This document shows positions 8,404 through 28,828 of a DNA stretch of 64,000 nt, piece by piece. Below the pieces are notes generated by a model. That model worked only from the letters and a program-made list of their open reading frames with translations. It searched no databases and was not told where the DNA came from. Made by a program: the position numbers and the translations under genes. This stretch comes from Herbidospora sakaeratensis (GTDB lineage Bacteria > Actinomycetota > Actinomycetes > Streptosporangiales > Streptosporangiaceae), in assembly GCF_001570525.1 (NCBI RefSeq), contig NZ_BBXC01000007.1, forward strand, positions 227,085-291,084. Direction: 5' to 3'. Every line of letters starts with the position of its first letter. Positions within the stretch are counted from its first letter, which is position 1.

Positions 8404-10644
8404 ATGGCGCTGCGGCCCGTCGTCGTCACCGGCCTGGGAGTCATCTGTGCCATCGGCCGGAACCCAGAGGAGTTCTGGCACCGGCTCACCACGGGGCAGG
8501 GCGGCCTCACCCCCGTCCAGGACCCGGCCTTTGAGGTCTTCGAGGCCCGGTACGCCGGACAGGTCCCGGACGCGTGGGTCACCGGGCAGCTGCCCGAGGC
8601 CGACACCGCCCTCGACCGCACCGCCGCGCTCGCCCTGATCGCCGCCCGCCAGGCGATCGTCCAGGCGGGGCTGACCGGTGTCGACCCCGCCCGGTTCGGG
8701 ATGATCCTCGGCAAGTGCCAGGCCACCCCGGACGCGGCCGGCCACTACCAGCCCATGCACCACACCCAGGACGTGATCGCCGACCGGCTGGGCATGCGCG
8801 GCCCCCGCATCCTGGTGTCCACCGCCTGCGCGGCCGGCGGCAACGCGGTCGGGCTGGCCAAGGACAAGATCCTCTCCGGGGAGGCCGACGCCGTCCTGGC
8901 CGGCGGCGTCGACCCGCTGCTGTTCGGCACCTACGCCGGCTTCGCCGGCCTCAAGGCCCTGAGCACCGGCCCGTGCCGGCCCTACAGCCACTCCGACGGA
9001 CTGAACCTCGGCGAAGGAGCGGCGTTCCTGCTGCTGGAGCCGCTCGACCTGGCGCTGGCCCGGGGCGCGGTCCCGCTGGCCGAGGTCGCCGGGTACGGCC
9101 TGTCGGCCGACGCCTACCACGCCACCGCCCCCGACCCCACCGGCCGGGGCGGGGTGTCCGCGATGCGGCGGGCGCTCGCCGACGCCGGCCTGACCACCGA
9201 CGACGTCGGCTACGTCAGCGGGCACGGCACCGGCACCCCGGCCAACGACGCGATGGAGGCCAAGGTCATGCGCACGGTCTTCGGGCCGCGCGCCGGGCAG
9301 GTGCCGACCAGCAGCATCAAGTCGTTCGTCGGCCACACCCTGGGCGCTGCCGGGGCGGTCGAGGCGGTCGCCGCCGTGCTCGCCCTGCGCGACGGCCTCG
9401 CGCCGCCCACGATCGGCTTCGCCCCCGATGCGGTGCCGGGCGACCTCGACTTCGTGCCGAACGTCGCCCGCGAGTTGTCGACCGACACGGTCGTCTCCAA
9501 CAACTACGCGTTCGGCGGCAACAACGTCTCGCTGGTCCTCACCACGCCGGGGGCCGGCCGGGAGTACCCGGAGCCGGCCCCCCGAGAGGCCGTGATCACC
9601 GGGCTCGGGCCGGTCAGCGGGCTCGGGGCGGGCGTGGCCGAGATCACCGAGGCCATCCTGACCGGCCGCCGGGCGCCCGGCGAGCGGCCCTCCCTGGAGG
9701 GCCGGACGTTCGCGCCCCGCTCGCTCTGGCGGCACATGAACCACCTGTCCAGGATGGCCATCGCGGCCGCCCGGCTGAGCTGGGAGGACGCCGGGCTGAA
9801 GTTGCCCAGGAAGGAACTCGACGACGTCGGGCTGGTGTTCGCCACCGGCGCCGGGTCGGCCGAGAGCACCGGCGGCTTCGACGACAGCATCGCGGCCAAC
9901 CCGAACAAGCCGGCCGTGCTCAGCTTCTCCAACGTGGTGCTGAACGCCACCGGCGGCGCGGTCTGCCAGACCCTCGGGCTGCGCGGGCCGACCACGACGA
10001 TCTGCAACGGCGGGGCGTCGGCGTCGATCGCGCTCGACTGCGCGGTGGAGATGATCAAGGCGGGCAAGGCCGAGGTGGTCCTGGTGGTGGCCGCCGACGA
10101 GCACGTCGGCCTGACGCCGCGGGACACGCCGGTGTCGCCGTACGACCGGGACTCGGGACGGGTGCCCGGGTCGGCGGCGGTCGCGTTCGTGGTGGAGGCG
10201 GCCGGCCACTGCGCGGCGCGGGGCGGCACCCCGTACGCGCGGGTGCTGGGCACCAGCCACGTCAGCGGGCCCTTCGACGGGCTCACCGGCCTCGCCGGGC
10301 TCACCGAACCGTTCGACCTGGTGGTCGGCGCGGCCACCGGCGGCGGCGACGACGCCGAGGAGGCCGCCTCGGTGCTGGCCGCGCTGCCCGGCGTGCCGCT
10401 GACCGCCTCGGCCGGGCTCACCGGCGACTGCCAGGCCGCGACCGGCGCCCTGAACATCGTGCTGGCCGCCCTCGCGATCAGGGACGGGGTCGCGCCCGCC
10501 CTGGCCGGGATGACCACGCCGGCGGCGGGCACACGCGCCGACTACGTGACCGAACCGGAGTTGCCGGAGCCGGCCCGGCGGGCGCTGGTGCTCAGCTCCG
10601 CGCCCGGCTCGGTGCGCGGCGCCGTCGTGCTGGGGGCGGCATGA
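8404..10644 (+). CDS. fused ketosynthase - chain-length-factor-like protein
   Basis: 746 residues that read as two complete thiolase-fold halves. Half 1 (about 1-385) is a KS: active Cys142 in VSTACAAGGN, His in SGHGTGTPAND, His in FVGHTLGAAGA, C-terminal YAFGGNNVSLVL. A short linker (GAGREYPEPAPRE) leads to half 2 (about 395-746), which starts again with AVITGLGPVSGLGAG. In half 2 the nucleophile position falls in ICNGGASAS (no Cys at the aligned site by my alignment) and both His motifs are gone (GAATGGGDD, SAGLTGDCQ), which is the hallmark of a chain-length factor. Type II systems normally make KS and CLF as two proteins. Neighbours (ACP, KR, DH) indicate a highly reducing polyene-type minimal PKS. 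Ribosome site AAGGAGATCC. Its stop overlaps the nitroreductase start. Confidence 0.88.
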   Translation: MALRPVVVTGLGVICAIGRNPEEFWHRLTTGQGGLTPVQDPAFEVFEARYAGQVPDAWVTGQLPEADTALDRTAALALIAARQAIVQAGLTGVDPARFGMILGKCQATPDAAGHYQPMHHTQDVIADRLGMRGPRILVSTACAAGGNAVGLAKDKILSGEADAVLAGGVDPLLFGTYAGFAGLKALSTGPCRPYSHSDGLNLGEGAAFLLLEPLDLALARGAVPLAEVAGYGLSADAYHATAPDPTGRGGVSAMRRALADAGLTTDDVGYVSGHGTGTPANDAMEAKVMRTVFGPRAGQVPTSSIKSFVGHTLGAAGAVEAVAAVLALRDGLAPPTIGFAPDAVPGDLDFVPNVARELSTDTVVSNNYAFGGNNVSLVLTTPGAGREYPEPAPREAVITGLGPVSGLGAGVAEITEAILTGRRAPGERPSLEGRTFAPRSLWRHMNHLSRMAIAAARLSWEDAGLKLPRKELDDVGLVFATGAGSAESTGGFDDSIAANPNKPAVLSFSNVVLNATGGAVCQTLGLRGPTTTICNGGASASIALDCAVEMIKAGKAEVVLVVAADEHVGLTPRDTPVSPYDRDSGRVPGSAAVAFVVEAAGHCAARGGTPYARVLGTSHVSGPFDGLTGLAGLTEPFDLVVGAATGGGDDAEEAASVLAALPGVPLTASAGLTGDCQAATGALNIVLAALAIRDGVAPALAGMTTPAAGTRADYVTEPELPEPARRALVLSSAPGSVRGAVVLGAA

Positions 10645-13455: not shown

Positions 13456-14360
13456 TGCTCGGCTACCTGTTCCCCGGTCAGGGCACCGTCCGGGTCGGCA
13501 TGGGCGGCTGGTTGCGCCGCCGCCCGGTCGCCCGCGCCGTGCTCAACGAGGTCGACGAGCTGCTGGAGCGGCCGATCTCGGCGCTCTGCGTGCGCGGCCC
13601 GCTCGACCGGCTGGTGGCCACCGAGCACGCCCAGATCGCGGTGACCGCGTGCAACCTGGCGGCGCTGGCCGTGCTGCGGGAAGAGGGCTACGAGCCGGGC
13701 GTGGTGGCCGGGCACAGCGTCGGCGAGCTGACCGCGCTGCACGCCGCCGGGGTGCTCGGGCTCGCCGGCACGGTCCGCCTGGTGGAGACCCGGTCGCGGC
13801 TGATGTCGGAGGTCGGCGTGACCGGCGGCATGCGCGCGGTGATGGGCCTGCCGGTCGAGCGGGTCGAGGAGCTGGCCGCGCTGGCCGGGACCCCGGACGA
13901 GCCGCTCGTGGTCGGGCTGGAGAACGCGCCGGGGCACGTGGTCGTCTCCGGTGCGACGGCGGCGCTCGACCGGCTGACCGGCCTGGCCGTCGACGCCGCC
14001 AAGATCGTGTCGCTGGCGGTGGGCAACGCGTTCCACTCGCCGCTGATGGCCGCCGCCGTGCCGGGGTGGGCCGAGGCCGTCCGGGCCGCGCCGATGGCGC
14101 CACCCAGGGTGCCGGTCGTGCCCAACGTCACCGGCCGGCCCACCGAGGACCTCGACGTCATCAGGGATTCGCTGATCGCCCAGCTCACCGGCCGGGTGCG
14201 CTGGACGGACACCGTCACGGTGGTGGACGCGCTCGGGCCCGCCGTCGAGGTGGGCGACAGCAAGGTGCTGGCCGGGTTGTCCCGCCGGGCCGGCGCGCGC
14301 TGCCTGAGCATGGCCGACCCCGGCACCCTGCGCCGGCTGGCCAGGGAGCTGGCGGCATGA
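13455..14360 (+). CDS. free-standing malonyl-type acyltransferase
   Basis: About 301 residues of the FabD/MCAT fold: N-terminal LFPGQGTVRVGMG, nucleophile elbow AGHSVGELTA (Ser about 88), and catalytic His in NAFHSPLM (about 194). The AFHS motif fits malonyl specificity. The C-terminal VPNVTGRPTED is typical. Likely loads malonyl units onto the type II ACP at 6558; it could also serve the PCP at 25902 or edit chains. Overlaps both neighbours by one to four bases, so fully coupled to the operon. The type I genes have their own AT domains and do not need it. Confidence 0.9.
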   Translation: MLGYLFPGQGTVRVGMGGWLRRRPVARAVLNEVDELLERPISALCVRGPLDRLVATEHAQIAVTACNLAALAVLREEGYEPGVVAGHSVGELTALHAAGVLGLAGTVRLVETRSRLMSEVGVTGGMRAVMGLPVERVEELAALAGTPDEPLVVGLENAPGHVVVSGATAALDRLTGLAVDAAKIVSLAVGNAFHSPLMAAAVPGWAEAVRAAPMAPPRVPVVPNVTGRPTEDLDVIRDSLIAQLTGRVRWTDTVTVVDALGPAVEVGDSKVLAGLSRRAGARCLSMADPGTLRRLARELAA

Positions 14361-15623: not shown

Positions 15624-16409
15624 ATGACCGACTTCACCTTCGAGCACGCGCCGGGGGACGGCGACCGGCCGGCCGTGGTGTTCATGTCCGCGCTGTTCGC
15701 CGGCGGCTGGATCTGGGAGCACCCCTACCGGCGGCTGGCGGCGGCGGGGACGCCGGTGCTGCGCACCCACGAGGCCATCTGCGCCCTCGACCGGCGGGTG
15801 GCCGGGTCGATCGAACGGCTCGGCGACGCGCTCCTCGCCGCCTGCGACGAGGCCGGCGAGCAGGACGTGATCGTGTGCGCCAACTCGCTCGGCGGGCTCG
15901 TCGCGATCGACCTCGCCGGGCGGCGCCCCGACCGGGTGCGCGGCATCGTGGTCAGCGGCGCCCCCGGCCTCACCCCCGACCCCGACGTCGGCCTCAGCTT
16001 CGACCGGCGGGCCAGCGTGCGGCCGGTCGGCGCGGAGTTCGGCGACCGGATGACGGCCGCGCTCTTCCACGGCGAGCAGCGGTTCTTCACCCAGGAGCAG
16101 ATGGACGGCGTCGGCGCCATGCTGCTGCGGCCCGAGGCGATGGTCAGCATGGCCCGCAGCATCAAGGCCACCCGCCGCTACCAGGTCAGGCCCGCGCTGG
16201 ACAAGGTGAGCTGCCCGGCCGCGTTCGTGTGGGGGCGGCACGACCGGATGACCCCCGTCGATCCCTGGCTGGAGCTGCTCGCCGGCTACCCCGGTGCCGA
16301 GGTCGTCGTGGTGGCCGACAGCGGACACATCCCGATGATCGAACGGGCCGAGGAGTACACCACGGTCCTGGAGTCGTTCCTGGACCGGCACGGCCGGGTG
16401 CCGGCATGA
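15624..16409 (+). CDS. alpha/beta hydrolase (Ser nucleophile)
   Basis: About 261 residues. Nucleophile elbow CANSLGGLVA (Ser about 88), acid in WGRHDRMTP, His in DSGHIPMIE. Unlike the hydrolase at 12586 this one has the usual Ser, so it could be an esterase, thioesterase or C-C hydrolase. In an operon with a type II PKS, chain release from the ACP or hydrolysis of an intermediate is plausible but unproven. Ribosome site CGGGAG upstream of ATG 15624. Its stop overlaps the ATG of the next gene. Confidence 0.87.
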   Translation: MTDFTFEHAPGDGDRPAVVFMSALFAGGWIWEHPYRRLAAAGTPVLRTHEAICALDRRVAGSIERLGDALLAACDEAGEQDVIVCANSLGGLVAIDLAGRRPDRVRGIVVSGAPGLTPDPDVGLSFDRRASVRPVGAEFGDRMTAALFHGEQRFFTQEQMDGVGAMLLRPEAMVSMARSIKATRRYQVRPALDKVSCPAAFVWGRHDRMTPVDPWLELLAGYPGAEVVVVADSGHIPMIERAEEYTTVLESFLDRHGRVPA

Positions 16410-16837
16410 CCGCGGTCCTCGTCGGGGTGGACATCGTGTCGGCCGACCGGCTGACCCGGGCCGTCGCGCGCGGCGGCGCGACCCTCGCCCGCCACGTCGG
16501 CCCGGGCATGGAGGCGTTCCCGGTCAAGGAGAGCTTCATCAAGGCCGTCGGGGCCCGCCCGCCCGGCTTCAGCTGGCACGACTTCGAGGCCGCGGCCGAG
16601 CCGCCGCCGCCCTGGGCCGGCGAGCTGCTCGACGAGGCGGCCGCCGAACTCACCGCCGCCACCGGCCTGATCCTGACCGGCGGCGCGGCGTACGTGCTGC
16701 GCGGGGCCTGCCAGGAGGCCGCCCGGCTCCGCCTGGCCGGTCCGGTGGCGGGCGCGGCCCGCTGGGGGAGCGGCGCGGGGCTGCTCGTCTCCCTCGCCGT
16801 CGTCTACGTCGACAGGAAGGACACCCGATGTCCATGA
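16406..16837 (+). CDS. AcpS-like protein B (diverged holo-ACP synthase fold)
   Basis: 143 residues with the N-terminal AcpS signature VGVDIVSADRL (Mg-binding Asp about residue 9) and a helix FPVKESFIKAVG that keeps the KE pair. In the C-terminal part, where AcpS proteins have RW followed by SLSH, this protein reads ARWGSGAGLLVSLAVVYV, so the SLSH His is absent. It thus complements the protein at 14357, which keeps SLSH but lacks Asp and Glu. AcpS is a trimer with active sites between subunits, so a mixed oligomer is conceivable. It may alternatively be a single diverged phosphopantetheinyl transferase for the pathway carrier proteins. Confidence 0.62.
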   Translation: MTAVLVGVDIVSADRLTRAVARGGATLARHVGPGMEAFPVKESFIKAVGARPPGFSWHDFEAAAEPPPPWAGELLDEAAAELTAATGLILTGGAAYVLRGACQEAARLRLAGPVAGAARWGSGAGLLVSLAVVYVDRKDTRCP

Positions 16838-17832
16838 CCACGACCGTCCGGCCCGGCGGCTCGATCCAGGCCGCCCTCGACGAGGCGGGCCCCGGCGCGA
16901 CGATCCTGCTCGGCGCGGGGGAGTACCCGGGGAACGTCTGGATCAGGCACGACGGGGTGACCCTGCGCGGGAAGGGGGCCGTGCTGGTCCCCGGGCCGGG
17001 GCCCCGCTCCGGCGTCCCGAAGCTGCACGACGCGGGGGAGGACGTCGTCTCGGGCGTCGTCGCGCACGGCGTCCGCGACCTCACGGTCGAGGGGCTGACG
17101 GTGCGCGGCTTCTCCGGCGCCGGCGTCTACGCCCACTCCGTCACCGGCCTGGCCGTCCGCGACGTGACCGCCGTGGACAACGCCGTCTGGGGCGTCTACG
17201 TGCGGGAGTCGGCGGGCTGCGAAGTGTTGCGGTGCCGGGCCTCCGGCAGCCAGTACGGCGGCGTCGCGGTCAGCTTCTGCGGGAGCGGCGAGGCGCTCGT
17301 CGAGGGCAACGAGACCTTCGCCAACGCGTTCGGCGTGTTCGTCGACAACTCCAGCGGGGTGCGGGTGCTGCGCAACGTCAGCCACGGCAACGCGATCGGG
17401 CTGATGCTGCTCAACCAGACGTACGAGGGGGAGCCCGACGGCGGGGTGCGCGACTGCCTGGTCGCCGGCAACGTCGTCCACGGCAACGACCTGGCCTCCG
17501 GCGGCGACGACCCCGGCGCGCTGGGCGCGGCGGGCCCGCCGATCTCGGGGGTGGGCATCGCGCTGATCGGCACCGAGCGGGTGTGCGTGGTCGACAACGA
17601 CGTCCACGACAACCACCCCAGCGGCGCGTCGGTGATGGGCGCCGCGTTCGTGATGGGCTCGTCGAAGGGCTGGGGCGGCGACGACGCGGTCGCCAACCAC
17701 GTGCTCTGGAACAGGGTCACCGGCAACACGCCGCTGGACTACCAGCTGGGCGTCGACCTCGGGCTCCAGACCTTCGCCGGCAACGTGGCCGCCAAGGGAG
17801 AGCCCGCCGAAGCGTTGGGATGGCGGCCATGA
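16828..17832 (+). CDS. cytoplasmic right-handed parallel beta-helix protein
   Basis: About 334 residues with repeating beta-helix coils (pectate-lyase/NosD-like pattern): recurring V-x-G-N/D-x-x-x-x-N turns such as VEGNETFANAFGVFV, VLRNVSHGNAIGLML, VAGNVVHGNDL, VVDNDVHDN and HVLWNRVTGN. There is no signal peptide or Tat motif, unlike polysaccharide-degrading relatives. It starts with a segment like VRPGGSIQAALDEAGPGATI. GACAGGAAGG lies seven bases before ATG 16828, within the end of the previous gene. Its place in the middle of the biosynthetic operon suggests an enzyme or scaffold for the polyketide, for example an isomerase or cyclase. Function unknown. Confidence 0.85.
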   Translation: MSMTTTVRPGGSIQAALDEAGPGATILLGAGEYPGNVWIRHDGVTLRGKGAVLVPGPGPRSGVPKLHDAGEDVVSGVVAHGVRDLTVEGLTVRGFSGAGVYAHSVTGLAVRDVTAVDNAVWGVYVRESAGCEVLRCRASGSQYGGVAVSFCGSGEALVEGNETFANAFGVFVDNSSGVRVLRNVSHGNAIGLMLLNQTYEGEPDGGVRDCLVAGNVVHGNDLASGGDDPGALGAAGPPISGVGIALIGTERVCVVDNDVHDNHPSGASVMGAAFVMGSSKGWGGDDAVANHVLWNRVTGNTPLDYQLGVDLGLQTFAGNVAAKGEPAEALGWRP

Positions 17833-19947: not shown

Positions 19948-21086
19948 GACCGCACCCCGTCCTGGCGCTCGTCGCCGCCAACCTGCGCCGGCACTCCCGC
20001 GACCGGGTGGGCCTGTTCTTCATCGTGGTGATGCCGTTCGTCAGCATCGTCTTCGTCGGCATGGCGCTGGGCGGCGGCGCCGCCGCCTCGCGGCTGCCGG
20101 TCGGCGTGGTGGCCCAGGAGTCCGACCCGGTGGCCGCCGCCGTCCTGGCGGAACTGCGCGCGCACCCCGACCTGGAGATCACCACCGTCGGCGGCGAGGA
20201 GGAGCTGCGGGCCGGCGTCCGGGGCGGCGCGCTGGCCGCCGGCGTCGTCATCCCGCCGGGCTCGGCCCGGTTCGAGCTGGTCATGACGCAGTCGAGCGGC
20301 AGCGGCATGGCCGCCCGCAGCGCCGTCGACGCCTCCGTCGGCCGGGTCGCCGGCGTCATCGAGGCCACCCGCGCCGCCACCACGGCCGGCGCGACCCCGG
20401 AACGGGCCGCCGAACTGGTGCGCCGGGCGCAGGCCGCCTCGGCCGAGGTCGAGGTGGTCAACTCCGACACGGCGTCCGGGACCCCTCGGGGGTTCGCCTA
20501 CACCGCCCCCGCCAACCTGCTGCTGTTCACGTTCATCAACTCCATGGCCGTCGCCGCCGCGCTCGTCGAGAGCCGCCGCATCGGCATGCTGCCCCGGGCC
20601 TTCACCGCCCCGGTGCGGCGCGGGGCCGTCCTGTTCGGCGAGGCGCTCAGCCGCTTCATCGTGGCCGCCGCCCAGGCGGTGCTGATCATGGTGGTGAGCT
20701 CGCTGCTGTTCGGCGTCTCCTGGGGCGAGCCGCTCGGCGTCGCCGCCGTGGTGGGCGTCTTCGCGCTGGTCGCCACCGGCGCCGCGATCCTGATGGGCAG
20801 CCTGGTGCGCTCGTCGGCGCAGCCGTCCGCGATCGGGCCGCCGCTCGGCATCGTGCTCGGCATGCTCGGCGGCTGCCTGTGGCCCGCCGAGGCCGCCGGT
20901 CAGACGCTCAACGCCATCGGCCACCTGTTCCCGCACGCCTGGGGGATGGACGCGCTCCTGACTCTGTCCCGGCCCGGGACGGGACTCGGCGACGTGCTGC
21001 CGGAGGTCGCCGTCCTGGGCCTCATGGCCGCCGTTCTGCTGAGCCTGTCCCTAGTTCTGTTCAGCCGACGAACGAGAACCCTCTGA
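19944..21086 (+). CDS. ABC-2 type permease, second subunit
   Basis: About 380 residues from ATG 19944. Same layout as the preceding gene: one N-terminal membrane segment (GLFFIVVMPFVSIVFVGM), an extracytoplasmic region, and a C-terminal block of membrane segments (LFTFINSMAVAAALV, RFIVAAAQAVLIMVVSSLL, VAAVVGVFALVATGAAIL, IGPPLGIVLGMLGGCLW, VAVLGLMAAVLLSLSLVLF). The two permeases probably form a heterodimer with the ATPase at 17829. Last gene of the coupled run; the regulator follows after 14 bases with its own strong ribosome site. Confidence 0.92.
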   Translation: MRPHPVLALVAANLRRHSRDRVGLFFIVVMPFVSIVFVGMALGGGAAASRLPVGVVAQESDPVAAAVLAELRAHPDLEITTVGGEEELRAGVRGGALAAGVVIPPGSARFELVMTQSSGSGMAARSAVDASVGRVAGVIEATRAATTAGATPERAAELVRRAQAASAEVEVVNSDTASGTPRGFAYTAPANLLLFTFINSMAVAAALVESRRIGMLPRAFTAPVRRGAVLFGEALSRFIVAAAQAVLIMVVSSLLFGVSWGEPLGVAAVVGVFALVATGAAILMGSLVRSSAQPSAIGPPLGIVLGMLGGCLWPAEAAGQTLNAIGHLFPHAWGMDALLTLSRPGTGLGDVLPEVAVLGLMAAVLLSLSLVLFSRRTRTL

Positions 21087-21100
21087 GGAGGCAGCACACT

Positions 21101-22045
21101 ATGAATTCGACCACCAAATGGCCCGCCGACATCGCGGGCGTCTACCGATACGCGACCAGGAAGGGCGCCATCGACGCTCTCGACGTGGCGGCCGGCGAGC
21201 TCGGCATCGGCATGCGCGAGCTGAGCGAGGCGGTGAACCAGCTCGTCGAGAGCCGCCTGTTACGCGCCGTCGACGGCGCGGCCCACCGGTTCATCCCGGT
21301 CGACCCGCAGGTGGCGGCCAACGCGCTGGTCTCCTCGGTCGAGCGGGAGATCTACCAGCGGCGGGAGCTGATCGACCAGATCCGGGACTTCGTCGGTCCC
21401 GCGCCCTCGCCGATCGAGTACCTGGCCGGGTCGCTGGAGGTGCGCGGCTTCCTCAAGATGGCCGGGGACGCCTGCCGTACCGAGGTGCTGGTCCTGCAGT
21501 CGGGCGAGGACGACGCCGAGGAGCTGGCGCGGGCGTACCTGCCGCTGCTCACGCGCGGCGTCACGGTGCGGATCGTCTGCCAGCACCGCAACCGGGCCGA
21601 CCTGGCCACCCGGATGAAGCTGAAGCAGCTCATCGACGCGGGCGCGGCCATCGGCACGGTCAGCCACGTGCCGCGCTCCGCGGTCGTCTTCGACCGCACG
21701 CTGGTCGTGCTGTTCGGCCTGTCGGACGGCGAGACCAACGTGGCGCGGGTGCACAACGACGGCATCGTCGGGTTCCTGCTCGACCTGTTCGACCACCTGT
21801 GGGACACCGCGACGCCGCTGGAGGGCGCCGAGTCGGGCTACGCGAACGTCGCCGACGACCTGCGGCAGGCCATCGCGGGGCTGATGGCGAAGGGCTACAC
21901 CGACGAGGTGGTGGCCCGCAAGCTCGGCATGTCGGTGCGCAGTTGCCGCCGGCACATCGCCACGCTGATGCGCGACCTGGAGGCCACCAGCAGGTTCCAG
22001 GCGGGGGTGCAGGCGGCGCGCACGTTTCTGGCCAGCGGCGCGTGA
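21101..22045 (+). CDS. TrmB-like / LuxR-HTH transcriptional regulator with a TTA codon
   Basis: 314 residues. The N-terminus resembles a winged-helix of TrmB-type regulators (AAGELGIGMRELSEAVNQLVESRLL). A central phospholipase-D-like or sensor region follows (EVLVLQSGEDDAEELA, GVTVRIVCQH), and a C-terminal LuxR-like helix-turn-helix (LMAKGYTDEVVARKLGMSVRSCRRHI). Ribosome site GAGGAGGC upstream of ATG 21101. Codon 54 is TTA (21260-21262), rare in such GC-rich DNA, so translation may depend on the leucyl tRNA of the bldA type. Likely pathway regulator at the end of the operon. A hairpin terminator follows its stop. Confidence 0.85.
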   Translation: MNSTTKWPADIAGVYRYATRKGAIDALDVAAGELGIGMRELSEAVNQLVESRLLRAVDGAAHRFIPVDPQVAANALVSSVEREIYQRRELIDQIRDFVGPAPSPIEYLAGSLEVRGFLKMAGDACRTEVLVLQSGEDDAEELARAYLPLLTRGVTVRIVCQHRNRADLATRMKLKQLIDAGAAIGTVSHVPRSAVVFDRTLVVLFGLSDGETNVARVHNDGIVGFLLDLFDHLWDTATPLEGAESGYANVADDLRQAIAGLMAKGYTDEVVARKLGMSVRSCRRHIATLMRDLEATSRFQAGVQAARTFLASGA

Positions 22046-22095: not shown

Positions 22096-23250
22096 TCAGC
22101 GCATCGCCGCCACGACGCCGGCCAGGCCGTGGGCCCGGTCGCAGACCAGGTTCAAGCCTCTGACCAGTTCCTCGACCGTCATGCGGGGGCTCAGGCACAT
22201 CCTGATGGAGCTGTTGGCGTCCTCGGCGCTCACCCCGATGGCGGTGAGCACGGGTGAGGGTTCCTGGGAGTCGGAGTTGCACGCCGACCCGGTGGACAGC
22301 GCCACCGACGGCAGGCTCGCGACCAGGCTCTCGCCGCGCACGCCCGGCAGCACCACGTTGAGCACGTGCGGGACGCCGGCCTCCGGGTTCCCGTTGAGCC
22401 GCAGGCCGGGAACACGACGGGTGAGCAGTTCCAGCGCGGTCGCGCGCAGCAGCGCGACCCTTCCGGCGTCCTCCTCCATCCGGGCGGCGGCCAGTTCGCA
22501 GGCCGTGCCGAGGCCGACCGCCAGGTGGGTGGGGATGGTGCCGCTGCGCAGGTCGTACTGGCCGCCGCCGTAGGTGATGGGGCGGATCCGGCGGCGGATC
22601 TCCGGGCGGACGTACAGGACGCCGACGCCCTTCGGGCCGCCGATCTTGTGGGCGGACATGGCCAGGGTGTCGACGGCCGCGCCGGTCACGTCGATCGGGA
22701 TCCGGCCGGCGGCCGGGGCGGCGTCGACGTGCAGCAGGGCGCCGCTCTCATGACAGATCGCGGCCATCTCGCGGACCGGCTGGATGGTGCCGATCTCGCT
22801 GTTCACCCAGGCCACCGTGGCCGTCCGGGTGTCGAAGTCGAGCTGGCCGGCGAACCGGGTCAGGTCGACCACGCCGTCGGGCCGGATCGCCATGGTCCGG
22901 ATGCCGACGCCGCGTCCGCGCAGGGCGCGGGCGACCGACAACGACGACTTGTGGTCGGTGGGGCAGAACACCGCGTTGACCGGCGAGCGGTCGTCGTGGC
23001 CGAACGCGCCGAGCAGCGCGATGTTGTTGCTCTCGGTCGCGCCCGAGGTGAACACGACCCCGGCCGGGTCGCCGCCGAGGAGCCGCGCGACCGATTCGGC
23101 CGCCCCGTCGACCGCCCTGCGGGCACGCTTGCCCAGCAGGTGGGGGGACGACGGGTTGCCGAACTCCTCGCGCAGGTACGGCAGCATCGCGTCGAGCACT
23201 TCGTCGTCCACCCGGGTGGTGGCGCAGTTGTCCAGGTATATGACGTCCAT
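22096..23250 (-). CDS. cysteine desulfurase-like PLP enzyme (NifS/IscS family)
   Basis: About 384 residues, class V aminotransferase fold. The N-terminus YLDNCATT, SGATESNN, PLP-stacking His100 (PTDHKSSL), Asp in LLHVDAAPAAG, Schiff-base Lys202 in SAHKIGGPKG, and the persulfide Cys about 324 in STGSACNSDSQEPS are all in family order. The Gln that usually follows the PLP Asp (DATQ/DAAQ) is Pro here (DAAP). It would extract sulfur from cysteine as a protein persulfide. Last gene of a leftward operon after a Cys-containing unknown and a condensation-like protein, so its sulfur probably goes into the product and not Fe-S clusters (inference). Ribosome site GAGGA ahead of ATG 23250. Confidence 0.9.
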   Translation of the reverse strand: MDVIYLDNCATTRVDDEVLDAMLPYLREEFGNPSSPHLLGKRARRAVDGAAESVARLLGGDPAGVVFTSGATESNNIALLGAFGHDDRSPVNAVFCPTDHKSSLSVARALRGRGVGIRTMAIRPDGVVDLTRFAGQLDFDTRTATVAWVNSEIGTIQPVREMAAICHESGALLHVDAAPAAGRIPIDVTGAAVDTLAMSAHKIGGPKGVGVLYVRPEIRRRIRPITYGGGQYDLRSGTIPTHLAVGLGTACELAAARMEEDAGRVALLRATALELLTRRVPGLRLNGNPEAGVPHVLNVVLPGVRGESLVASLPSVALSTGSACNSDSQEPSPVLTAIGVSAEDANSSIRMCLSPRMTVEELVRGLNLVCDRAHGLAGVVAAMR

Positions 23251-23260
23251 GGATCCGTCC

Positions 23261-24151
23261 TCAACTCCGGAAGGTGCTGACCGTCACCAGCTTCGAGTAG
23301 ATCTCGTCGGTGGACATCTCGCCGCTGCCGCCGGGGTCGGCGATCACGACGGTCATGCCGGTGAGCCGGTAGAGGCTGAGCGCGATCTCGACGCCGGTCC
23401 GCACCGGGGCCAGGCACTCGCCCGGGGCGAAGATCACGATAGTGCGGTAGCCGGCCTGGTGCACCTCCGAGATCATCTCGGTGATCTCGCCGGCGCAGCC
23501 GGTGACGCCGCAGCTGATCAGGGTGCGGTAGTTGCCCGATTCGTCCAGGAACGAGACCTCGGTGTCCTTCGCGCCCGACTCCAGCACGCGCTTCTCGAGC
23601 CTGCCCTGCTTGACGAACTTGTCGGCGGCCTTCTGGAAGCGGTACTTGAGCCAGGTCTCCGGGAACGCCAGCGGGTGTTTGCGGCTGGGCAGCACGCTGC
23701 CCGCGTCGAGCCCCGCCTCGCGCAGGACACGCTCGTATCCCTCGGGCAGCCCGGTGAAGCCGTCGAGGAACTCGGCGCGCAGCTGACTGGCGGGACGGCC
23801 GCCGGTGGGGACGTACTGCCAGTCGTTGATCAGCAGCAGCAGCCTGGCGTCGTCGACGACCTTCGCGTACGACGTGACCAGGTCGACCGAGAGCCGCCAG
23901 GTGTAGCCGGGGAAGATCCCGACCCGGCCGGCGATGCGGTCGCGCATGACGGTGGACGACTGCTCCTCCAGGACGCCGGGCACGAGCCGGCCGGTGCCCT
24001 CCTCCTCGAACAGCATGAAGTGGCCGCCCATGACGACCAGGTCGTCGAGGTTCGCGGTGGCGAGTTCGCGGTCGATGGCGGTGCGGAGGTCCTGCTCCGA
24101 GGCGACGAGCTGGTCGACCTTGCTTATGGTCTCCGTGAACAGTTCAGTCAT
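23261..24151 (-). CDS. unknown Cys-containing protein in desulfurase operon
   Basis: 296 residues, family not recognised. Visible features: soluble, no signal peptide; an alpha-helical start (ETISKVDQLVASEQDL); LVVMGGHFMLFEEEGTG; hydrophobic strand DDARLLLLINDWQ; basic helical stretch (KADKF-like, ADKFVKQGRLEKRV); then CGVTGC, followed by strand-turn-helix GYRTIVIFAPGECLAPV and TGMTVVIADPGGSGEM. Three Cys (two in CGVTGC, one in GEC) near the C-terminal half could take up sulfur or bind metal. It overlaps the condensation-like gene as ATGA and ends 10 bases before the desulfurase-like start, so the three are coupled. A sulfur acceptor or modifying enzyme is a hypothesis only. Confidence 0.75.
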   Translation of the reverse strand: MTELFTETISKVDQLVASEQDLRTAIDRELATANLDDLVVMGGHFMLFEEEGTGRLVPGVLEEQSSTVMRDRIAGRVGIFPGYTWRLSVDLVTSYAKVVDDARLLLLINDWQYVPTGGRPASQLRAEFLDGFTGLPEGYERVLREAGLDAGSVLPSRKHPLAFPETWLKYRFQKAADKFVKQGRLEKRVLESGAKDTEVSFLDESGNYRTLISCGVTGCAGEITEMISEVHQAGYRTIVIFAPGECLAPVRTGVEIALSLYRLTGMTVVIADPGGSGEMSTDEIYSKLVTVSTFRS

Positions 24152-25710
24152 GATCGAACTCCGGGTTGTAGTAAGTGGCCCGCCAGGGTGCTCAGCGGCG
24201 TGGGGCCGGTGAGCTGGTCGAGGGTGACGCCCGCCCACCCGAGGTCCCGGAGCAGGGCGAGCACCCGCGGGATCCGCAGCACCCTGCCTCCGGCGTCGGC
24301 GTAGTTCCGGGCCGGGTCGACGCCGGCGAGTCCGTTCGCCCGGCCCACGGCGGCCGCGAGGGCCGCTGCCGCTCCCGGTTCCGGGACGTCGCGTGCGTCG
24401 GGGATCCGTCCGGGCGGCGGCGCGGGGGCGAAGCCGGCCAGCGCGGCGATGTCGCTGACCCGCAGGCCGTCCGGCGTGTCGTCGTAGGTGAGGATCGTGG
24501 TCTCCAGGGTGCGCAGGAAACGCTCGACGGCGTCCGCGTCCATGACCGAGGAGCTCGCGTGCAGCGCGACCACGACGGAGTCGAGCCACTGGTCGACGCG
24601 GACGTAGGTGTCGGCGCCGTGGGCGTCGGCCGCCGGTTGCCAGGTGATCCTGCTGCGACGGGCGCGCGACTCCAGGGTGGGCTGCTTGATGAAGTTGAAC
24701 TCCGACGCCAGCCGGACGCCCTTCCCGGCCAGCAGCTCGACCACCGCGTCGTACGGGACGTGGGCGTGCTCCCGCGCCTGCTCGAACCGGTCGGCGACGC
24801 GGGCGAGCAACTCGGCGAACGGCGGGTCGTCGCGCACGTCGACGCGCATCAGCATCGGGGAGAACATGCAGGTCAGGACCTCTGCGTACGGCCCGCTCTC
24901 GCGGTTGCCGGTGAACGTCAGATGGTCGAACGACGGGCCGCCGGTGTAGGCGGCCATCAGCGCCGTGTAGGCCGCCAGGTGCACCTGCGACGGCCACACC
25001 CGGTGACGGGCGGCGATCCGCTGCGAGGCGCCCAGCAGGGCCGGGGAGATCAGCGACGCCCGCAGCGTCTCGGCGGGCGGGCCGGGCCGGCGGCGGTCGC
25101 CGAACCCGTCGGCCGGCATGGCCTCGATCTCCTTCTCCCAGTACGCCAGCGACGGCCCCGGATCAAGGGACGCCTCGTGCCGGACGAGGTCGGATGGGCG
25201 GTGCCGGACCGGTTCGACCGCGGTGGGCCGCCGGGCCACCACGCCCGCGCAACTGGCCCACAACTCGCGCTTGAGCTCGGTGACCGTCCACATGTCGGCC
25301 GCGAGGTGGTTCAGCACCACCACCGCCCGCCGGGGCACGCCCTCGTCGGTGATGACGACGACCCGGATCGGCCATTCTTCGGCGAGGTCGAACTCGGCCG
25401 TGCCGAGCCGCTCCACGACCTCGGCGGGCATGGCCGTGCCGTCGTTCTCCGAGGACAACACGACGAGGGGACACGGGCCGGGCGGGCGGACGACCCGGTA
25501 GGGGTCGCCGTCGAGGTCGAAGTGGTAGGTGGTGCGCAGCGTCTCGTGCCTGCGGACCGTCTGATTGAGAATCGCCCGGCAGTTCTGCACCGTCAGGCCG
25601 GCTGGAATCTCTAGATTCAGAATGATATGTGTATTGTGGCGAGCGCGCGGCGGCAGTTCGTGGTAGCGGAGCCAGATGTAATGCTGGCCCCAGCCGAGAT
25701 TCGTGTTCAT
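24148..25710 (-). CDS. free-standing condensation-domain-like protein C1
   Basis: About 520 residues with NRPS condensation-domain architecture: LNQTVRRHETLRTTYH (C2-like motif), then VLNHLAADMWTV at the HHxxxDG site, where the first His is Asn, the catalytic second His and the Asp are kept, and the Gly is Met. Later motifs such as HLTFTGNRESGPY and DDPPFAELLARV also fit. After the C fold (about residue 420) there is a tail with little similarity to anything I recognise. No adenylation or carrier domain is attached. It should form an amide or ester between two carrier-bound groups. AGGAGG upstream of ATG 25710. Heads the operon with the unknown and desulfurase-like genes. Confidence 0.83.
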   Translation of the reverse strand: MNTNLGWGQHYIWLRYHELPPRARHNTHIILNLEIPAGLTVQNCRAILNQTVRRHETLRTTYHFDLDGDPYRVVRPPGPCPLVVLSSENDGTAMPAEVVERLGTAEFDLAEEWPIRVVVITDEGVPRRAVVVLNHLAADMWTVTELKRELWASCAGVVARRPTAVEPVRHRPSDLVRHEASLDPGPSLAYWEKEIEAMPADGFGDRRRPGPPAETLRASLISPALLGASQRIAARHRVWPSQVHLAAYTALMAAYTGGPSFDHLTFTGNRESGPYAEVLTCMFSPMLMRVDVRDDPPFAELLARVADRFEQAREHAHVPYDAVVELLAGKGVRLASEFNFIKQPTLESRARRSRITWQPAADAHGADTYVRVDQWLDSVVVALHASSSVMDADAVERFLRTLETTILTYDDTPDGLRVSDIAALAGFAPAPPPGRIPDARDVPEPGAAAALAAAVGRANGLAGVDPARNYADAGGRVLRIPRVLALLRDLGWAGVTLDQLTGPTPLSTLAGHLLQPGVRS

Positions 25711-25901
25711 CGGCGACCCGGCCTCCTGCGGTTGAACGTTTCAGCCTACCCAGGCTAAATGAGAAGACGGCCGCCGTCGTGACCGGCCGATGGCAGCTTG
25801 TTCTCGGGAAAAAGCTGCCAGATCCCTTCGTTGACAGTGGTCGCGGAATTCAATGACGCTGAACGAGGTAATTCAGCGCAGGGATTTCGAGGAGACCCGT
25901 G
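25711..25901. promoter_or_regulatory. divergent promoter region, C1 operon / carrier-ligase operon
   Basis: 191-bp gap between divergent starts. It contains AGCCT 25743-25747 with AGGCT 25752-25756, and a strong palindrome TGGCAGCTT 25791-25799 with AAGCTGCCA 25812-25820. AT content rises towards 25861. The ribosome site GAGGAG is at 25889-25894 for ATG 25902. Promoter boxes not assigned. Confidence 0.6.
25791..25820. repeat. 9-bp inverted repeat, candidate operator
   Basis: Perfect 9-bp arms TGGCAGCTT and AAGCTGCCA separated by 12 bases (G TTCTCGGG AAA). The TGGCAGC core recurs in the PKS promoter gap at 30908-30914, where another TGGCA/TGCCA palindrome lies at 30921-30938. Shared regulator binding is possible. 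Confidence 0.5.
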
Positions 25902-26159
25902 ATGGAAATACCTCACGAGTTCCAGACCATTCTTCGCCGGCATCTGCCCTACGCCGGGCCGGGTGACCTGGCCCCCGGTGACGATCTCACCGCGCTGGGG
26001 CTGGATTCGATGGGGGTGGTGCAGTTGCTGGTCGATCTGGAGGACGGCTACGACCGGGAACTGCCCGACGACATCCTCGACGAGGAGACGTTCGCGACGG
26101 TGGGGTCGTTGTGGGCGCGGTTGTCGGCGCTGCTCGACGCGGCGCGGGCCGGGATCTGA
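25902..26159 (+). CDS. stand-alone acyl/peptidyl carrier protein
   Basis: 85 residues with phosphopantetheine Ser about 36 in TALGLDSMGVVQLL. The tail is acidic to amphipathic as expected (LEDGYDRELPDDILDEETF). GAGGAG lies seven bases upstream of ATG 25902. Directly followed by an AMP-forming ligase and a decarboxylase, it should carry the amino-acyl thioester that the decarboxylase acts on, as BtrI does in butirosin biosynthesis or VinL in vicenistatin biosynthesis. Confidence 0.9.
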   Translation: MEIPHEFQTILRRHLPYAGPGDLAPGDDLTALGLDSMGVVQLLVDLEDGYDRELPDDILDEETFATVGSLWARLSALLDAARAGI

Positions 26160-26162
26160 GCC

Positions 26163-27617
26163 GTGCCGACCCGTCTCGACGACCTGCTGCGGTCCGGCGC
26201 CGACGACCACCCGGCGCTCACCTACAAGGACGTGACGCTCACCTATCGCGAGCTGCGGGACCGGGTCGCGCGGGCGGCCGGGGCGCTGCGCGGGCTGGAG
26301 CCGGGCGCCCGGGTCGCGATCTACGCGGAGAAGCGGCTCGAAACGGTCGTGGCGATCTTCGCGGTGGCGGCGGCCGGCGGGGTCGTCGTCCCGATCAACC
26401 CGCTCTTCAAGGCCAGGCAGGTCGAGTACGTGGTCGACGACTGCGGCGCCGTGCTGCTGCTCACCACACCCGAGCGGGCCCGCACGCTGACGGTCCCGGC
26501 GCCCACGTCCATGATCGACGACCTGGACGCGGGACCGGGAGGCGTGACGGCCCCCGCCGCGCGGGTCGCGGCCATCCTCTACACCTCCGGCAGCACCGGA
26601 CGGCCGAAGGGCGTCGTGCTGAGCCACGGCAACCTGCTCGCGGGCGCGCGGAGCGTCGCCGGGTACCTCGGCCACACCGCCGACGACGTGGTGCTCGCGG
26701 CGCTGCCGCTGAGCTTCGACGCCGGCTTGAGCCAGCTCACCACCGCGTTCCTGGCCGGAGCCCACGTGGTGCTGGTCAACTACCTGCTGCCCCGCGACGT
26801 TGTGCGGCTCTGCGCCCGGCACGGGGTGACCGCGCTGACCTGCGTGCCGCCGCTGTGGACCCAGCTCGCCACCCAGCGATGGCCGGTCGAGGCGACCCGG
26901 AGCCTGCGCTACTTCGCCAACACCGGCGGCCGCCTGCCCGCGACCACCCTGGCCCGGTTGCGCGAGACGTTCCCCCAGGCCACCCCCTTCCTCATGTACG
27001 GCCTGACCGAGGCCTTCCGGTCCACCTACCTCGACCCGGCCGAGATCGACCGGCGCCCCGGATCGATCGGCAAGGCGATCCCCGGCGCGGAGGTCCTGGT
27101 CGTCCGGCCCGACGGGTCGGTCTGCGACCCCGGCGAGGAGGGGGAGATCGTGCACCGGGGACCGCTGGTGTCGCTCGGCTACTGGAACGACCCCGCCCGC
27201 ACCGCGGCCCGGTTCCGGCCGTTCCCGCCCGGCGCCGACGAGATCGCCGTCTGGTCGGGCGACGTCGCCTACCGCGACGACGACGGCTTCATCTACTTCG
27301 TCGGACGCACCGACGACATGATCAAGACCTCCGGCTACCGGCTGAGCCCGACCGAGGTGGAGGAGGCGGCCTACGCCACCGGCCTGGTCACCGAGGCCGT
27401 CGCGGTCGGCGTGCCCGACGAGGACCTGGGCGAGCAGGTGGCGCTGCACGCCGTGCTCACCGCCCCCGCCACCACTCCCGACGAGCTGCGCCGGGCGATG
27501 GAACGCGACCTGCCCCGGTACATGGTGCCGCGCCGGTTCATCCTCGCCGCCGCGCTGCCCCGCTCGGGGAACGGCAAGTTCGACCGCGCCGAACTGCGCC
27601 GCCGGGCGATGACATGA
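26163..27617 (+). CDS. AMP-forming amino acid/acyl--carrier protein ligase
   Basis: 484 residues, ANL superfamily. Core motifs: ILYTSGSTGRPKGVVLSHGN (A3), MYGLTEAFRSTYL (A5), SGDVAYRDDDGFIYFVGRTDD (A7/A8), MIKTSGYRLSPTEVEEAAY and C-terminal catalytic Lys in SGNGKFDRAEL. GTG start at 26163, three bases after the carrier stop. It activates a carboxylic acid with ATP and loads it on the carrier protein. Given the following decarboxylase, the substrate is probably an amino acid such as Asp, Glu or a derivative; the specificity pocket was not decoded. It resembles acyl ligases that co-occur with ACP and PLP-decarboxylase genes in other clusters. Confidence 0.9.
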   Translation: MPTRLDDLLRSGADDHPALTYKDVTLTYRELRDRVARAAGALRGLEPGARVAIYAEKRLETVVAIFAVAAAGGVVVPINPLFKARQVEYVVDDCGAVLLLTTPERARTLTVPAPTSMIDDLDAGPGGVTAPAARVAAILYTSGSTGRPKGVVLSHGNLLAGARSVAGYLGHTADDVVLAALPLSFDAGLSQLTTAFLAGAHVVLVNYLLPRDVVRLCARHGVTALTCVPPLWTQLATQRWPVEATRSLRYFANTGGRLPATTLARLRETFPQATPFLMYGLTEAFRSTYLDPAEIDRRPGSIGKAIPGAEVLVVRPDGSVCDPGEEGEIVHRGPLVSLGYWNDPARTAARFRPFPPGADEIAVWSGDVAYRDDDGFIYFVGRTDDMIKTSGYRLSPTEVEEAAYATGLVTEAVAVGVPDEDLGEQVALHAVLTAPATTPDELRRAMERDLPRYMVPRRFILAAALPRSGNGKFDRAELRRRAMT

Positions 27618-28828
27618 CCGGGCAGGGCCACTGGGAAGGTCACCGGGACGGGCGGCTGACCGTCGGCGGCATCCCCGCCGGACTGCTCGCCGCCCGGGTC
27701 GGCGGCACGCCGTTCTTCGCCTACGACCGCGACCTGGTCACCCGCCGGGTCGCCTCCCTGCGTGCCGTGCTGCCCGCCGGGATCGAGCTGAGCTACGCGG
27801 TCAAGGCCAACCCGATGCCCGCCCTGCTGCAGCACCTCAGCGGGCTGGTCGACGGCTTCGACGTGGCCTCGGCGGGCGAGTTGCGGCACGCGCTCGACAC
27901 GCCGGTGCCACCCGCGCGGATCGGTTTCGCCGGGCCGGGCAAGACCGTCCAGGAACTGACCCAGGCGGTCGCGGCCGGCGTGACGGTGGAACTGGAATCG
28001 GAGACGGAACTGGCCCGGGTGCGCACGATCGGCGCCGCCCTCGGGGTCCCGGCCCGGATCGCGATCCGCGTCAATCCCGACTTCACGGTGCGGGGCTCCG
28101 GCATGCGCCTGGGCGGCGGGCCGCAGCAGTTCGGCGTCGACGCCGAACGGGTGCCCGACATGCTCGCCCAGCTGGGCGACGACGTCGACTTCCAGGGTTT
28201 CCACGTCTTCGCGGGCTCGCAGAACCTGCGCGCCGACGACATCTGCGAGGCGCAGCGGCGCACTGTGGACCTGGTCGCCGGGCTCGCCGAGGTGTCGCCG
28301 CCCATCCGCTACCTCAACCTCGGCGGCGGCTTCGGCATCCCCTACTCGCGCCGCGACCGGCCCCTCGACCTGGGGCCGATCGGCGACAACCTGGCCCAGC
28401 TCCTGCGCGAGCGCATCACCCCGCTGCTCCCGGAGGCCCGCGTCGTCCTCGAACTCGGCCGCTATCTGGTCGGCGAGGCGGGCGTGTACGTCACCCGCGT
28501 CGTCGACCGGAAGCAGTCCCGCGGCACCACCTTCGTGGTCGTCGACGGCGGCATGCACCACCAGCTGGCGGCCTCGGGGAACCTCGGGCAGGTCATCCGG
28601 CGCAACTACCCGATGGCCGTGGCCGACCGCATGGGCGAGCCCGCGGACGCGCCGGTCACCGTGGTCGGCCGCCTGTGCACCCCCCTCGACCTGCTCGGCG
28701 ACCGCGTGGAACTCCCGAAGGTCGAGATCGGCGACCTGGTCGTCGTCTTCCAGGCCGGCGCCTACGGCCTCACGGCGAGCCCCACGGGCTTCCTCAGCCA
28801 TCCGGCGCCGGTCGAGATCCTCGTGTGA
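27614..28828 (+). CDS. PLP-dependent decarboxylase, diaminopimelate-decarboxylase fold
   Basis: About 404 residues, fold III (LysA/ornithine decarboxylase). PLP Lys in SYAVKANPMP, FHVFAGSQNLRA, Gly-rich NLGGGFGIPYS, phosphate/PLP-side GRYLVGEAG, catalytic Cys in VGRLCTPLD, and final AGAYG. HVFAGSQ in place of HIGSQ is the form I associate with decarboxylases acting on carrier-bound amino acids (VinO, BtrK and exosortase-associated relatives) and not on free diaminopimelate. Its ATG overlaps the ligase stop. It should yield an omega-amino or beta-amino acyl thioester on the carrier at 25902. Convergent with the C2 gene, only seven bases between stops. Confidence 0.9.
   Translation: MTGQGHWEGHRDGRLTVGGIPAGLLAARVGGTPFFAYDRDLVTRRVASLRAVLPAGIELSYAVKANPMPALLQHLSGLVDGFDVASAGELRHALDTPVPPARIGFAGPGKTVQELTQAVAAGVTVELESETELARVRTIGAALGVPARIAIRVNPDFTVRGSGMRLGGGPQQFGVDAERVPDMLAQLGDDVDFQGFHVFAGSQNLRADDICEAQRRTVDLVAGLAEVSPPIRYLNLGGGFGIPYSRRDRPLDLGPIGDNLAQLLRERITPLLPEARVVLELGRYLVGEAGVYVTRVVDRKQSRGTTFVVVDGGMHHQLAASGNLGQVIRRNYPMAVADRMGEPADAPVTVVGRLCTPLDLLGDRVELPKVEIGDLVVVFQAGAYGLTASPTGFLSHPAPVEILV

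Follow-up and report, generated by a model that had tools for sequence, protein, structure and literature searches.

A conserved gene pair of an undescribed three-cysteine protein and a desulfurase-like enzyme in a Herbidospora sakaeratensis polyketide cluster: a candidate sulfur-insertion module

The 64,000-nucleotide stretch of the Herbidospora sakaeratensis genome analyzed here (hereafter the window) carries a leftward operon of three genes encoding a free-standing condensation-like protein (C1), a protein of an undescribed family (mid), and an enzyme of the cysteine desulfurase type. Comparison with related loci showed that the conserved unit is the pair of mid and the desulfurase, not the triplet with C1; the evidence is strong for a two-gene module that spans phyla and has one undescribed member. 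Sulfur insertion by the pair is likely rather than proven. We hypothesize a dedicated sulfur-insertion pair, in which persulfide formed by the desulfurase would pass to mid and from there to a small amino compound, which C1 would acylate in actinomycetes; as a whole, we hold this proposal tentatively, as a serious possibility that falls short of being probable.

Results

The conserved unit is a gene pair found in three phyla

The initial annotation had described three tightly coupled leftward genes, and the open reading frame (ORF) coordinates bear this out: the TGA of C1 (24148–25710, reverse strand, 520 aa) overlaps the ATG of mid (23261–24151, reverse strand, 296 aa) by 4 bases, and a 10-base gap separates mid from the desulfurase (22096–23250, reverse strand, 384 aa). 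The ATG start of mid is internal to a longer mechanical ORF. A scan for mid in a collection of 84,980 species genomes gave 46 loci, a number that is no census, since exact peptide patterns of the query were used and distant members were therefore missed; a plasmid search added 2 more, for a total of 48. The genes for mid and the desulfurase are adjacent on one strand in 46 of the 48 (Actinomycetota, Bacillota, and Pseudomonadota). The distance from mid to the start of the desulfurase, on the same strand, is –4 to +124 bases in 44 of the 46 genome loci, and because this tight spacing is kept so widely, the pairing is not a matter of chance; both plasmid loci show the same order, mid and then the desulfurase. 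There are two exceptions. Photorhabdus thracensis (L050) gave no desulfurase match, and its mid gene is followed directly by a methyltransferase gene that lacks its start (L050:10016–11569 is without both the desulfurase and the methyltransferase start). L055 breaks off within mid; in the same genome, another contig has genes for a module-type desulfurase and a short Ddl at its beginning.

C1 stands directly before mid in all 26 actinomycete loci (spacing –22 to +27 in the 25 that could be measured; the contig of L018 stops within C1). A tblastn search within 7 kb of mid detected it in none of the 22 non-actinomycete loci, some of which are short, and the triplet was rejected as a conserved unit on these grounds. 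The three-gene block, for which the initial annotation had proposed a search elsewhere, recurs in the actinomycetes. The interpretation given in that annotation, condensation chemistry combined with persulfide supply and sulfur entering a polyketide or amide product by a route unlike those of the thiotetronates and leinamycin, is partly supported: persulfide supply is plausible, but the unit that carries it is the pair.

Judged by mid, the nearest named relatives of the window are Herbidospora species (91–93% identity). In samples of single phyla, only one of 396 Actinomycetota genomes matched mid, namely the one that holds the window. The Bacillota sample (398 genomes) returned the centre genome and two weak matches, L124, which reads as an oxidoreductase, and L125, and the Pseudomonadota sample (398 genomes) returned the centre genome, one fragment in an apparently decayed copy, and one distant relative of mid. 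In the decayed copy (L127), the mid fragment lies beside an exporter-like ORF. The distant relative (L129:9260–10105, reverse strand, equal to L128:1129–1974; 281 aa) retains GH, NDWQ, and CAGE, and 50 of the 265 positions aligned with mid are identical; no desulfurase match was obtained within its 19.5-kb stretch. From a reading of its sequence, L129 adjoins a sodium:solute symporter-like protein. A viral origin of mid was rejected, with no relative in viral_contigs and one weak PHROG match, to 1 of 30 members. No description of the pair was found in the open-licence literature.

This distribution bears on whether the pair might be a house-keeping device for sulfur or stress whose place in biosynthetic clusters is accidental, as might be imagined for the listed Photorhabdus, Xenorhabdus, and Burkholderia loci, where a methyltransferase was the only nearby biosynthetic gene noticed. 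We regard this as very improbable, given that no close full-length copy, but only the fragment and the distant relative, occurred in the 395 other Actinomycetota, 397 Bacillota, and 397 Pseudomonadota genomes, and that the pair is found repeatedly beside carrier-protein, quorum-sensing, or exporter genes.

The desulfurase forms a clade of its own

The desulfurase scores 222.9 bits against Pfam Aminotran_5 (cut-off 21.5). Its pyridoxal 5'-phosphate (PLP) lysine, catalytic cysteine, and stacking histidine (K202, C324, and H100) are intact in all 20 module desulfurases compared, and in two alignments with a mitochondrial cysteine desulfurase, the catalytic cysteine loop is gapless. Because of these features, supply of persulfide by this IscS/NifS-type enzyme is plausible. 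Its score reaches the equivalog cut-off in none of the NCBIfam desulfurase models that it matched (best 325.9 of 548 bits), which argues for a clade distinct from IscS or NifS proper. In the trees, the module desulfurases cluster together and are separated (SH-aLRT 100) from the remaining class V enzymes of the genomes compared. The trees took 20 of the 47 gathered module rows; the initial tree omitted five rows and contained four that were filled in less than half of the columns, and the repaired comparison has 50 rows, 20 from modules and 30 others (L149 gave no match, and L151, L155, L158, and L161 had been dropped beforehand as duplicates of module desulfurase genes). The module label needed two changes on the 50-row tree. 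The module gene of L039 had entered as row L159 under the label 'other', and we infer that this is the 'other' row inside the module group.

Both the scores below the equivalog cut-offs and the separate grouping would also suit a class V PLP enzyme that in vivo is no desulfurase but makes an amino building block, which mid would ligate or activate. Against this stand the catalytic cysteine, kept in 20 of 20 sequences, and the gapless alignment of its loop to the mitochondrial desulfurase, and we consider this reading quite unlikely.

mid combines three invariant cysteines with a predicted synthetase-like fold

No Pfam cut-off was reached by mid, and NCBIfam gave no match. LPD16, as which mid is annotated in Priestia records, was rejected as its identity, as the score is below the Pfam cut-off (18.2 of 27 bits). 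C214, C219, and C246, found in the contexts CX4CAGE and PxEC, are each present in 42 of 42 aligned members, and no other cysteine is conserved in half or more of the 42 rows. AlphaFold models of two lead sequences (predicted local distance difference test scores of 85.3 and 84.5; predicted template modelling score of 0.86 for both) matched ArgRS best (4oby; Z 15.2, root-mean-square deviation [rmsd] 3.1 Å over 198 residues; for the second model, Z 14.5 and 3.5 Å over 199 residues), values to be set against the usual best Z of 7–8 for models without a clear match. CysRS (12.0), MetRS, GlnRS, and MshC (11.7) followed at Z of about 11–12, and all ten Foldseek matches at or below 1e-3 were ArgRS entries, one of them an ArgRS–GlnRS complex. 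mid is therefore predicted to have the Rossmann/HUP catalytic core of class I aminoacyl-tRNA synthetases (aaRSs). Class I aaRSs share the broad HUP fold with MnmA and ThiI, and for this reason mid itself may be the missing sulfur-transfer partner of the desulfurase. The initial annotation had seen no gene of the MnmA or ThiI type in the window, and this is correct: in this genome (8.6 Mb, 35 contigs), the single PF03054 match (C25) and the single PF02568 match are on contigs other than that of the window (C7).

In the secondary structure of the model, C214 comes after a strand and C219 opens the helix that follows; a further strand leads to another helix, with C246 at its start. This placement should bring all three to the same edge of the sheet. 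Such cysteines could also serve a different purpose, namely, the desulfurase might only build a [4Fe-4S] or similar cluster on them, and the product would be free of sulfur. We treat this as the main rival to sulfur insertion, possible though rather unlikely. It would account for the invariance of the three cysteines and the lack of any other cysteine conserved in half of the rows, and a dedicated NifS-type protein beside one client resembles nitrogenase maturation. The CX4C..C stretch is also weakly similar to a putative pyruvate:ferredoxin oxidoreductase beta subunit (20.1 bits, E 2.3e-4; a second match, E 3.9e-4), but two such matches over 398 genomes are about what chance yields at those E-values. 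Furthermore, in the loci with listed neighbours, the genes next to the pair included no evident scaffold, ferredoxin, or other redox partner, and the distant relative of mid has no match to the desulfurase in its 19.5-kb stretch.

Partner genes outside actinomycetes

Outside actinomycetes, a gene for an S-adenosylmethionine (SAM) methyltransferase follows the pair in 14 loci (Photorhabdus, Xenorhabdus, and Burkholderia), and an EamA exporter is encoded near it in six (L035, L036, L038, L052, L056, and L057), upstream and on the other strand in L056 and L057. A short Ddl-like gene comes after the desulfurase in four loci (L035, L052, and the plasmids L056 and L057, which have the same Ddl protein accession) and also in the split contig L078, whereas none of these three partners is in view in L037. 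Such partners suit a small compound that is exported or conjugated. Quorum-sensing genes beside the pair, a LuxI-like ORF in L035 (from sequence reading) and comX in L056 and L057, fit a secreted compound.

The short Ddl-like proteins of L035, L052, L078, and L056 group together (SH-aLRT 99), apart from 12 other Ddls, two of which are module-linked as well; L060 and L088 are missing from this tree. The short clade keeps the ATP-grasp signatures but has GCS for GSS in four of four sequences and F for Y in YxxK(Y/F) in three of four, changes at positions reminiscent of the E15-S150-Y216 acceptor-site triad of DdlB. Full-length Ddls with the usual residues are also linked to the module in Brucella pecoris and Pseudomonas guariconensis. 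These observations suggest a short Ddl that ligates a new partner and a full-length Ddl that confers immunity, although either could be the immunity protein. In the genome with the window, the Ddl matches are on other contigs; a D-cycloserine-like linkage to Ddl is thus lacking there and present in relatives.

The Ddl-like genes also bear on a special case of sulfur insertion, in which mid would activate cysteine, as MshC does, and yield a cysteine thioacid or a ring-closed disulfide (an S–S counterpart of cycloserine), with the Ddl-like proteins acting in immunity or ligation. The presence of MshC and CysRS among the fold matches is consistent with this, as are the altered acceptor-site residues of the short Ddls and the combination of Ddl-like and EamA genes in L035, L052, L056, and L057, which recalls dcsI/dcsJ. 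Nevertheless, ArgRS fits mid better than CysRS or MshC does, neither a Ddl-like nor an EamA gene lies near the pair in the methyltransferase group, the actinomycete loci, or the window, and no open-licence paper was found that joins dithiolan-3-one, cycloserine, and biosynthesis, all of which makes activation of cysteine improbable.

Three of these settings deserve description in their own right. In the Priestia plasmids L056 (12041–20864) and L057, mid, the desulfurase, and Ddl are followed by a polyprenyl synthetase, comX, a histidine kinase/response regulator pair, AcpS, an acyl carrier protein (ACP), and an acyl-CoA dehydrogenase-like protein, to which L056 adds an amino acid:[carrier protein] ligase; this is a plasmid-borne, unexplored pathway that is apparently under pheromone control. 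L052 (2335–13989), L055, and L078 hold a gene set common to Brucella pecoris and Pseudomonas guariconensis, composed of a full-length Ddl, a B12/radical SAM protein (TIGR04434, 799 bits in L052), a cystathionine-lyase-like PLP enzyme, mid, the desulfurase, and a short Ddl. In Photorhabdus khanii L040, three paralogous, secreted-looking proteins of about 210 aa (8792–9421, 13477–14109, and 16235–16894) flank the module.

The module in its polyketide cluster

C1, which was found only in actinomycete loci, matches Pfam Condensation (PF00668) with 71.5 bits (cut-off 30.6). It lacks the full HHxxxDG motif, the first histidine and the glycine being replaced, and shows NHLAxDxWT instead, with V or I variants, in 26 of 26 rows (the window and 25 loci). 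A second free-standing condensation-like protein, C2 (28836–30206, reverse strand; the start at 30206 agrees with relatives, while the mechanical ORF runs to 30575), shows SHLIxDxWS, again with V or I variants, in 25 of 25. The second histidine and the aspartate are retained in every row of both proteins. The C-terminal tail of C1 is carrier-like, but the serine at the phosphopantetheine position is present in none of the 23 readable rows (two gapped rows and a misaligned one were set aside). A free-standing ACP that retains its serine (GLDSMG; 25899–26159, forward strand) is encoded divergently from C1 and has homologues in 25 of the 26 actinomycete loci, the missing one being L018, which is cut by the contig end. 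It is accompanied by an acyl/amino-acid ligase (26163–27617, forward strand; above the TIGR03098 cut-off) and a PLP decarboxylase (27614–28828, forward strand; above the TIGR03099 cut-off), the latter with homologues in 10 of the 26 loci, of which L013 and L018 end too early to judge.

Type I polyketide synthase (PKS) genes occupy 31098–64000 on the forward strand, and the last of them continues beyond the window to about 64190. A KSQ-like module (DTGQSS) stands at the start of the first PKS protein, and since the first ketosynthase is of this type, the ligase/decarboxylase/ACP set more likely feeds chain release. A beta-amino-acid starter, made by a set like that of vicenistatin, is disfavoured for the same reason. 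No Thioesterase domain was detected in the last 1424 residues of the final PKS protein of the run. The ACP and ligase set, together with C2 and C1, would then make up a chain-release and capping apparatus in which C2 would probably act before C1. Release by C2 and C1 is not the sole possibility, since the region downstream contains a free thioesterase gene and, on the opposite strand, a further PKS gene.

On its other side, the desulfurase gene is flanked by a regulator with a weak LuxR-type helix-turn-helix (20879–22045, forward strand), found in this position in 25 of the 26 actinomycete loci (L030 ends before it). The same region of the window encodes a glycine-cleavage-T-like protein (7323–8375). 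A right-handed beta-helix (NosD-like) protein is encoded at 16828–17832 and has homologues in L010 and 23 other actinomycete loci.

Discussion

In the mechanism that we propose, the desulfurase would take sulfur from cysteine as a persulfide, and mid would accept it, directly or via a metal or iron–sulfur site, and insert it into a small amino compound. Most probably, the sulfur would take the place of an oxygen in an activated carboxylate or carbonyl group, a type of reaction that MnmA and TtuA carry out on tRNA. In Bacillota and Pseudomonadota, the compound would be exported, methylated, or joined to a partner by the Ddl-like ligase. In Streptosporangiaceae, C2 would join the polyketide to an aminoacyl-ACP, and C1 would use the amine of the compound (its thiol being less likely) to release the acyl-aminoacyl chain from the free-standing ACP. 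The analysis itself establishes the gene order, its conservation, the predicted fold, and the intact catalytic residues of the desulfurase; the sulfur in the product, the nature of the substrate, the use of ATP, and the order of C2 and C1 are what we infer here.

Several observations weigh against this proposal. HIGH, KMSKS, and PP-loop motifs are absent from all 42 members of mid, so that its use of ATP is unproven. No sequence homology to ArgRS or CysRS was found (hhalign probabilities of 0.3 and 0.2, obtained with shallow alignments), the best sequence E-values in the PDB (0.093 and 0.049) belong to unrelated proteins, and the Foldseek superpositions on ArgRS are loose (TM-score 0.36–0.43, rmsd 11–14 Å). 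A shared fold in any case proves no function for mid. Ddl and EamA are missing from the window and from the vicinity of the pair in most loci, and we know of no product for any locus that carries it.

A bolder version of sulfur insertion would make mid the founder of a new enzyme class, an aaRS-derived three-cysteine sulfur transferase that uses an amino acid and persulfide from the partner desulfurase to form a small amino thioacid or a ring-closed disulfide. Bacteria of several phyla would employ the product as a free antimetabolite, sometimes controlled by quorum sensing and accompanied by Ddl-type ligation or immunity, and in Streptosporangiaceae a free-standing condensation enzyme would graft it onto a polyketide. 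We find this elaboration unlikely, if worth stating.

If sulfur insertion by the pair is true, bacteria would have a further route for bringing sulfur into small molecules, beside thiouridylase-type and lyase-type enzymes, and a family without a curated domain model would gain a function. The pair also provides a two-gene search handle for unexplored sulfur metabolites, 46 of the fetched loci carrying it, and the linked Ddl-like genes point to one possible target, cell-wall D-Ala-D-Ala synthesis.

Among known systems, class I aaRSs, ArgRS above all, and MshC resemble mid in its predicted catalytic-core fold; mid differs from the class I aaRSs in having only 296 aa, neither HIGH nor KMSKS, and no sequence-level match. 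The D-cycloserine genes dcsI/dcsJ, a Ddl homologue and an exporter beside biosynthetic genes, parallel the surroundings of some mid relatives, but the other genes of that cluster are unrelated, and the window has neither Ddl nor the exporter. Pfam scans of the PKS proteins returned no name corresponding to the leinamycin-type DUF-SH, for which no model was searched.

The nearest precedent is the thiotetronate sulfur locus; mid would represent a separate answer to the same task, built on a related broad fold. TtuA and TtcA have an ATP-type activation core of the broad HUP fold. TtuA combines a three-cysteine [4Fe-4S] site and adenylation in one sulfur-transfer enzyme whose sulfur ultimately comes from cysteine (PMC6225789), and it shares with mid the presence of three conserved cysteines; it uses a thiocarboxylate carrier protein, whereas mid has no PP-loop, matches the aaRS fold, and is encoded beside metabolite genes. 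The paulomycin cluster likewise has a desulfurase within an antibiotic cluster, yet Pau31 is closest to SufS and its partner Pau30 is MoeZ/ThiF-like (PMC4425429). In the thiotetronates, a NifS-like desulfurase and a thiouridylase-like enzyme provide the sulfur of a PKS product, which is no longer made when the desulfurase gene is lost (PMC5518548). The likeness to the window lies in a dedicated NifS-like desulfurase with a sulfur-transfer enzyme (StuS/StuJ and TlmS/TlmJ) in a polyketide pathway. StuJ is annotated as a tRNA 2-thiouridylase, whereas mid lacks the PP-loop (0 of 42) and has three invariant cysteines; and the thiotetronate sulfur genes form a separate locus, whereas those of the window lie inside the cluster.

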